From Pseudoalteromonas luteoviolacea (GTDB lineage Bacteria > Pseudomonadota > Gammaproteobacteria > Enterobacterales > Alteromonadaceae), in contig NZ_JWIC01000004.1 in assembly GCF_000814765.1 (NCBI RefSeq), forward strand, positions 558,001-622,000: a stretch of 64,000 nucleotides of DNA. Direction: 5' to 3'. The translations under genes and the position numbers were made by a program. Below, one piece after another: positions 56,323 to 57,943 of the stretch (position 1 is its first letter; each line of letters begins with the position of its first letter). Below the pieces are notes generated by a model. The model was not told the DNA's origin, did not search any database, and worked only from the letters and a program-made list of their open reading frames with translations.

Positions 56323-56997
56323 TTAATTCGCAAATTGATTGAGCAGAATCGTGTGTGTAAATTGCGTTTTTAAATAAAATCCTCTCGGTAGTGTTTTAAT
56401 TAACCCCCCTTGTGGACCAATGGCATCAGTTAAAGCTTTGCTGTTGGCCGCTTTTGGTCTGATTTGCATAACTTCACCTAGGTGACCTGATATTTCATTT
56501 ACACGTCCAGTTGCGATTAATTCGATCTGTTCTTCCCAATCACGTTGTAATTGTGCCTCTTGCTGAGAGTCAGGTTGCCATAAAAAACCGCTGCCAATCG
56601 TTCTATCCACAGGCGCAATGTCTCGCTCAGCTAATATGGGCAACCATAAAACGTGGTTAAGCTTTCTTCTGACGCTAGAATGTAGCCAAGTGAGTCCTGT
56701 TAGGTTGGTCAGAGGCACGACAGAAACATACGTGGTCTCTAGTGGCTTGCCAGCATAACTGAGAGGAAGGGTTTTAAGCTCTACCCCGATATGCTCAAAA
56801 TCAGGCACAGGTTTTGATCCAGCACTGGCACCTAATACATATTCAATCAGTTGACCAGGCCAGCCTTTTTCTCTAAGTAAGTCATCTGGGCTTTTAAAAT
56901 GATACTGCGCAGCAAGTTCGCCAAGCGTTAACCCTGCGATTGCTTCGACTCGTTGTAGTAATTCAGGAATGGTTGTCGGTGGTGAGGGTTTTATCAT
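56323..56997 (-). CDS. mutH: DNA mismatch repair endonuclease MutH
   Basis: 224 residues. Nicks the unmethylated strand at hemimethylated GATC sites after MutSL activation. The catalytic D-x6-E-x-K is D66, E73, K75 in PDFEHIGVELKTLP, within a restriction-endonuclease-like fold. Full length. Its presence implies Dam-dependent strand discrimination. Divergent from rppH across 427 bases. Confidence 0.95.
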   Translation of the reverse strand: MIKPSPPTTIPELLQRVEAIAGLTLGELAAQYHFKSPDDLLREKGWPGQLIEYVLGASAGSKPVPDFEHIGVELKTLPLSYAGKPLETTYVSVVPLTNLTGLTWLHSSVRRKLNHVLWLPILAERDIAPVDRTIGSGFLWQPDSQQEAQLQRDWEEQIELIATGRVNEISGHLGEVMQIRPKAANSKALTDAIGPQGGLIKTLPRGFYLKTQFTHTILLNQFAN

Positions 56998-57053
56998 GGC
57001 CTTGTATTTATTGACTTTGATCTTGGTGTATTTTAACAGAATCCCCCTGAGAT

Positions 57054-57326
57054 TGTGGATTAAGTTGATTTGTTTGTTTTTTGTACTGAGTGTGGGTGTT
57101 GTTATTTTGTGCAGCTTAAAGTGGGGTGTGAATATTTTAAGGTTATGATTTTAATGGTTTTTATGGTTGGTTTGTATGTTTTACTTATCATCTAATAAGC
57201 AATGATTTGGATAAATACAGATATATGAACAACATTATCCACAGTTTCTGTGGAGAAGTTGGTGTTTTAGCGCTGATTCTGTGGATTTGTTTGTAAAATC
57301 TACTTATTTACTGAGAGTTATGCACA
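57054..57326. promoter_or_regulatory. Cluster of DnaA-box-like sequences in the mutH-rppH intergenic region
   Basis: Two full DnaA boxes of consensus TTATNCACA: TTATCCACA at 57235-57243 and TTATGCACA at 57318-57326. Three close variants on the minus strand: TAATCCACA (57062-57054), TTCTCCACA (57257-57249) and AAATCCACA (57288-57280). All are in an AT-rich 427-base gap (56998-57424) that contains no gene. It could be a DnaA titration or regulatory site; function is inference. Confidence 0.55.
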
Positions 57327-57424
57327 AGCTGTGAGTAACTTGAGTAAAAGCAGGAATAATATTTGCTGATGCCAGCCAGATATGGAACAATCAAATAAAA
57401 TAGACATAAGAATGAGGCGCTAAG

Positions 57425-57943
57425 GTGATTGATGCCGAAGGATTTCGTGCCAATGTGGGAATTGTCATATGTAACAACCAAGGGCAAGTTTTTTGGGCAA
57501 GGCGTTACGGCCAGCATTCTTGGCAGTTTCCCCAAGGGGGCGTGGATGAAGGTGAAACCCCTGAACAAACAATGTATCGAGAACTTCACGAAGAAGTGGG
57601 TTTGAGACCGGAAGACGTAGAAATCGTTGCGAGCTCAAAGCATTGGTTAAGATACAAGTTGCCCAAAAGGTTAATTCGTAAAGACTCTAGTCCGGTATGT
57701 ATTGGGCAAAAGCAGAAGTGGTTTTTACTCAAGCTCAGATGTAAAGATGAAGAGGTAGATTTACTTAGAACGCATCATCCGGAGTTTGATGATTGGCGCT
57801 GGGTAAGCTATTGGTACCCTGTTAGACAGGTGGTCTCGTTCAAAAGAGATGTGTACAGAAGAGTAATGAAAGAGTTTGCTCCATTTGCTATGCCTTTTAA
57901 TCGTAAAGAGCATAATCATAAAGAGCACTGGCGAAGACGATAG
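57425..57943 (+). CDS. rppH: RNA pyrophosphohydrolase RppH
   Basis: 172 residues, Nudix enzyme that removes pyrophosphate from 5'-triphosphate mRNA to start RNase E decay. The Nudix box G-x5-E-x7-R-E-x2-E-E-x-G spans residues 38-60 ([11 protein letters not shown] then [11 protein letters not shown]). GTG start at 57425, family start [13 protein letters not shown]. ptsP follows by 7 bases, the same order as in E. coli. Confidence 0.95.

Follow-up and report, generated by a model that had tools for sequence, protein, structure and literature searches.

The cluster of DnaA boxes lying between mutH and rppH in Pseudoalteromonas luteoviolacea is, judged from sequence and comparison, very probably the DARS2 (DnaA-reactivating) element of Pseudoalteromonas. 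In the 64-kb stretch of DNA analysed here (the window), mutH (56323..56997, minus strand) was assigned by synteny and by a match over cut-off to the MutH family NF003458, and rppH (57425..57943, plus strand) by a match over cut-off to the RppH family NF001934. The gap between them measures 427 bp and contains 33% G + C, compared with 43% for the window. RppH was matched in 59 of the 60 genomes searched (own genome included), its best named match being that of P. luteoviolacea DSM 6061 (98%).

Geometry and conservation of the core boxes

DnaA boxes were scored against the consensus TTWTNCACA. All five DnaA-box-like sites listed in the preliminary description were recovered, two of them exact, two with one mismatch and one with two mismatches, as it had stated, and its TCCACA-N5-TGTGGA pair was confirmed at 57238-57254. 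The five-site list was nevertheless incomplete, having overlooked a weak third core box, the sites resembling those of IHF and Fis, and the second partner of a box pair at 57318-57338.

The core spans 57223-57257 and reads ATATGAACA-ACA-TTATCCACA-GTTTC-TGTGGAGAA, in the order III-N3-II-N5-I. Box II (TTATCCACA, 57235..57243, plus strand) fits the consensus exactly, and box I (TTCTCCACA, 57249..57257, minus strand, one mismatch) stands head-to-head with it across five bases, while box III (ATATGAACA, 57223..57231, plus strand) is weak, with two mismatches, and is placed as in E. coli DARS1 and DARS2. In the sequence of E. coli DARS1 (bioD-uvrB), which has the same core as the window, box I is followed after N5 by box II in the opposite orientation and after N3 by box III facing the same way as box II. 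Boxes I and II of DARS elements are described as head-to-head (PMC10380432), and according to a review box I is opposed to II and III and the spacing of DARS2 equals that of DARS1 (PMC5742627). Applying the DARS1 geometry to E. coli DARS2 yields TTCTTCACA-ACT-CTATCCACA-GAAAA-GGTGAATAA, and the stretch between the published deletion-primer arms corresponds to the same three-box core plus three bases (PMC4585315). Two alternative assignments were rejected: the site at 57280 as box III, because the E. coli DARS1 spacing is N3, and a reverse reading of the near-palindromic I/II pair with TAAAACACC as third box, which was worse (four mismatches). The near-palindromic pair at 57238-57254 was also picked up as a terminator-like hairpin of the minus strand, a score that most likely just reflects the opposed orientation of boxes I and II.

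The location agrees with the geometry. E. coli DARS2 is reported to reside between mutH and rppH (PMC4585315), so that a dense box cluster, previously regarded as unexpected here, occupies the very locus of a known element. The distance from the end of box I to rppH is 167 bp in the window and 157 bp in E. coli. At the level of DNA similarity, 57040-57440 gave only four weak matches to E. coli (about 32 bases, E about 5).

The core was found at no more than three mismatches in all 36 genus genomes, and that of E. coli DARS2 scores three; mononucleotide shuffles produced a core at up to four mismatches in one of 2360 cases. All 36 genomes carry box III in the form [A/G/C]TATRAACA, box II as TTATCCACA and box I in the form TGTGGARAA. 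Within the 6.06-Mb genome, the only exact match to TTATCCACAN5TGTGGANAA is the mutH-rppH core, and at up to three mismatches the pattern gives 29 strand-hits, compared with 17 for the reversed control. At the level of sequence, the earlier suggestion of a DnaA-binding, replication-linked element is supported. Among the weak points in relation to DARS2 are box III and the flank box at +45 (see below), each two mismatches from the consensus.

It is the arrangement of these boxes that is special, not their bare count. The best 273-bp frame (starting at 57123-57127) holds eight boxes at up to one mismatch, and the frame starting at 57054 holds seven. In the 800 kb scanned of its own contig, C4 (972.5 kb), the cluster was the top 273-bp frame (eight boxes; the next had six, six and six), and two exact boxes within 273 bp also occurred at three other places. 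Accordingly, the density scan proposed in the preliminary description bore out the cluster in box density, whereas its exact-box count was tied by three other loci; the latter was therefore set aside as evidence. The core scan of these 800 kb passed over positions without CA-like letters at the box II core. In addition, TTATNCACA is only 1.5 times commoner genome-wide than its reversed control (319 versus 214). The three other loci would suit a chance cluster in AT-rich DNA, an explanation that we consider negligible in view of the simulations. Among 3000 Markov-1 simulations of the 427-bp gap, at least two exact boxes appeared in 21 and seven boxes (up to one mismatch) per 273 bp in four, but the observed eight were never reached; a DARS core arose in none at up to three mismatches and in three at up to five. 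Conservation of the core in 36 of 36 genus genomes likewise argues against chance.

Flanking sites on the mutH and rppH sides

On the mutH side, a search for an IHF site within the cluster, as had been proposed, revealed one candidate: TAAGGTTATGATT (57138..57150, plus strand), with one mismatch to YAANNNNYTGATW, lies 72 bp from box III. At a gap of 71-72 bp the IHF consensus is matched with up to one mismatch in 22 and with up to two in 35 of the 36 genus genomes; with up to one mismatch allowed, positions average 0.23 matches, and the runner-up has five. The E. coli IHF site TAATGCATTGACT is located 74 bp from its core. Outside the genus this spacing is a tendency only: among 36 core-bearing upstream regions, matches at up to two mismatches were most frequent at gaps of 83 (eight), 74 (seven) and 177 bp (six), and at up to one mismatch 6 of 12 Vibrio loci and 1 of 5 Shewanella loci have a site at 82-84 bp. 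Just before the IHF site of the window, GTGAATATTTTA resembles E. coli IBS2 by eye, but the genus alignment shows no conservation of it. A tract adjoining box III, TTTGGATAAATACA (57206..57219, minus strand), is conserved in the genus and includes the weak box TTATCCAAA.

Further out, the Fis-like site GTTTGTTTTTTGTAC (57072..57086; one mismatch to GNNYANNNNNTRNNC) stands at a gap of 136 bp. Of the 36 genus genomes, 23 have a Fis-like 15-mer with up to one mismatch at precisely this gap (mean 0.5 per position), and 31 have one when the best of gaps 131-140 is taken. The outermost site is a box-V-like DnaA site, TAATCCACA (57054..57062, minus strand, one mismatch), 160 bp from the core; in the genus it is present at up to one mismatch in a minority of genomes, weaker in many (e.g., CGTGGATAT, two mismatches) and absent in a few. 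E. coli has an exact box at 176 bp on the same strand. The Fis-like site at 134-138 bp adjoins the box-V-like site at 158-163 bp without overlapping it, whereas in E. coli DARS2 FBS2-3 overlap box V and low-affinity boxes, and IBS2 lies 3 bp from the other IHF site. The genes for IHF-alpha and Fis were detected over cut-off in the own genome, which also encodes DnaA.

The combination of boxes and a putative IHF site is shared with datA, and a datA-like titration or ATP-hydrolysis site was considered as well. It is very unlikely, as the head-to-head N5 pair, the third box at N3 and the mutH-rppH synteny are marks of DARS2, and datA differs in locus and role. It is reported to inactivate DnaA (PMC8682772, PMC4585315) and to lie beside the glyV-X-Y tRNA operon (PMC10380432), a neighbourhood not seen for the cluster, which sits between mutH and rppH. 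DARS2 is reported to do the opposite, reactivating DnaA from the ADP to the ATP form (PMC8682772, PMC10380432), and is described as the predominant site of DnaA recharging in E. coli (PMC8682772, PMC4245941). The titration role raised in the preliminary description is consequently unsupported; the core geometry, IHF spacing and synteny fit a DARS2.

On the rppH side, a flank box, TGTGGATTT (site AAATCCACA, 57280..57288, minus strand), starts 45 bp from the start of box II, and all 36 genus genomes carry TGTGGATTTG with up to one mismatch at exactly this offset. A pair of boxes, TTATGCACA-AGC-TGTGAGTAA (57318..57338), starts at +83, its first member TTATGCACA (57318..57326, plus strand) being an exact consensus box; the form TTATGCACA-N3-TGTGNGTAA is found with up to one mismatch at exactly +83 in 31 genus genomes and is missing in five. 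Beyond the genus, 16 of the 36 upstream regions with a core have a minus-strand box with up to one mismatch at +45/46 (14 of them at 46; mean 0.34 per position), and 20 have none there. Among core-bearing named loci, such a box stands at +45 to +47 in Vibrio (12/12), Photobacterium/Aliivibrio/Enterovibrio (5/5) and Shewanella (5/5), and a box at +54/55 in the Rheinheimera group (11/11). The named groups used for the counts of IHF sites, second triads and +45 boxes were picked from the core-bearing loci. The E. coli box at +46 is TGTTTATAA, which the deletion primers of PMC4585315 kept.

These spacings also bear on whether the boxes could serve a DnaA-controlled promoter of rppH or mutH, repressing transcription or timing it with replication. 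The boxes do sit between two divergent gene starts, and DnaA is known to regulate some promoters (PMC4585315). However, among the 36 genus genomes the core stands anywhere between 158 and 318 bp from rppH (sd 53), while the spacings of the core boxes, IHF site and +45 box hardly change, indicating that the parts of the DARS2 keep their places relative to each other but not relative to rppH. In addition, the two promoter-like sites returned by a consensus scan both face the mutH side, on the minus strand, and their number is no higher than that of shuffled sequences (1.8 on average). A promoter function is therefore improbable, and the earlier proposal that the cluster coordinates rppH-ptsP or mutH expression is weakened; a single scaffold is favoured over an rppH promoter.

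Taken together, the DARS2 of the window shares with that of E. coli the locus, the I-II-III geometry, the distance to rppH, the IHF site at 72-74 bp, a box-V-like site on the same strand and a minus-strand box at +45/46. It differs in its weak box III, single clear IHF site, displaced Fis-like site and fixed +83 pair, and in a gap shorter than the 684 bp of E. coli. Among the features expected of a DARS2, those present are boxes I-N5-II-N3-III with box I opposed (box III weak), the mutH-rppH location, genes for DnaA, IHF-alpha and Fis and, by consensus match and conservation, a candidate IHF site whose spacing from the core is fixed.

Distribution and genomic context

Among 80 named loci, the core (up to five mismatches) was found at mutH-rppH in 46, including those of Pseudoalteromonas (13/13), Vibrio (12/12), Shewanella (5/5), Rheinheimera (6/6), Alishewanella (2/2) and others, and was absent in Alteromonas (0/6), Idiomarina (0/5), Colwellia (0/4), Glaciecola (0/3) and Paraglaciecola (0/3). 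The mutH-rppH gap of the core-less genera is mostly 69-231 bp, with about 700 bp in two Paraglaciecola. Four of the 80 loci (L173, L178, L217 and L218) have no mutH gap value, the gap of L177 is 1067 bp, and L218 comprises only 199 bp upstream of rppH, making its missing core uninformative. Of 63 upstream regions from outside the genus (E. coli included), 36 carry the core at up to five mismatches and 27 do not; 40 of the regions were chosen among the matches listed (at least 188 genomes of the order), and L062 (G053) was left out, as its rppH start could not be placed. Homologues of DARS2 have been published for the related gammaproteobacteria Vibrio cholerae and Shewanella denitrificans (PMC8682772, Fig. 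8 legend), and the DARS2 of the window thus adds to a known kind of element.

A second core-like triad, nearer mutH, was observed in 32 of 69 core-bearing loci, in 30 of these at 298-355 bp from the core. It is present in E. coli L031, L035-L100 (25 loci), L215, L230, L231, L235, L240, L242 and L243; all five Shewanella loci have it, unlike the window, and none of the 12 Vibrio loci does. Its box I is often reduced to nnTGGATAA.

A second full core lies at C4:486752-486786 (L104, L140, L154), about 128 kb from the mutH-rppH cluster on the same contig. Downstream of it come a MATE gene and then uvrB, whose UvrB family match is truncated at the edge of the locus. On its sequence and position, this core is assigned as the DARS1 counterpart; DARS1 is reportedly independent of IHF and Fis (PMC8682772, PMC4245941). 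The full-core pattern was matched in 48 of the 60 genomes (counting the own one), including every one of the 36 from the genus, and in none with the reversed control. The MATE gene adjoins the second core in 28 of 29 genus loci inspected, and uvrB was seen beside it in the own genome and G059 only. A third DARS-like core was noted in two congeners, G003 (C94:2867-2901) and G033 (C58:20503-20537; L148), away from the rppH and MATE matches of these genomes.

Twelve of 13 genomes from other genera of the same GTDB family have no core at mutH-rppH. Eleven of these twelve harbor a DARS1-like core elsewhere, and six of the eleven harbor two. Such second cores were observed at L291-L293 (G141, G066, G156) and as second matches in G125, G207 and G218, all genomes without a DARS2 at mutH-rppH; three of these loci contain neither a MATE nor a uvrB gene. 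It is possible that the second DARS1-like cores represent relocated DARS.

In nine relatives, DARS2 lies at 0.48-0.63 of the replichore from dnaA, a mid-replichore placement that favours the DARS2 reading, compared with about 0.39 in E. coli. In the own dnaA (G000 C8:40361-40568, L131), the C-terminal DNA-binding family was matched in two frames; the 3' end is frame-shifted and unlike the dnaA end of G001. This frameshift in an essential gene is probably due to faulty assembly or sequencing.

Predicted mechanism and implications

DnaA reactivation is the best reading of the cluster, with DnaA binding and nucleotide exchange predicted by analogy. In E. coli, ADP-DnaA bound head-to-head on boxes I and II of DARS is reported to release ADP, with box III stabilising it; IHF and Fis activate DARS2 ahead of initiation, Fis being displaced by ATP-DnaA near box V (PMC8682772, PMC4245941, PMC10380432, PMC5742627). 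In Pseudoalteromonas, ADP-DnaA would likewise assemble head-to-head on boxes I and II, assisted by box III; contact between the AAA+ domains would release ADP, and apo-DnaA would depart and take up ATP. IHF bound at 72 bp would bend the DNA and return the Fis/box-V region towards the core, and this bent arm may turn DARS2 on before initiation. The fixed additional boxes on the rppH side would probably steady DnaA on box I.

The published E. coli DARS2 is a 455-bp element with named boxes IV-VI (PMC4245941, PMC8682772). Read jointly, our observations suggest a four-box DARS2, a tentative view to which we would give somewhat less than an even chance. The box at +45 to +47 (+54/55 in relatives of Rheinheimera), oriented as box I and shared by Pseudoalteromonas, Vibrionaceae, Shewanella and E. 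coli-like genomes, would keep DnaA in place on box I, a role that box III plays for box II; Pseudoalteromonas would have added the rigid +83 pair, and Alteromonas-type lineages would have no DARS2 at mutH-rppH, some having a second DARS1-like core elsewhere. The fourth box, which several clades have at a fixed 45-46 bp from box II, the second triad, and the absence at mutH-rppH in Alteromonas, Idiomarina and Colwellia are possibly new; the parts of the DARS literature examined contain no statement of the fixed +45/46 box, the second triad or the Alteromonas-type absence. A search mostly of papers available without subscription found none joining DARS2 with Pseudoalteromonas or 'DnaA-reactivating sequence' with Alteromonadales.

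The spacings frozen across 36 genomes point to the contacts that probably matter, namely the core, the IHF site at 72 bp, the +45 box and the +83 pair, and the distance to rppH is the part that probably does not. The relatives without a DARS2 at mutH-rppH provide natural comparisons.
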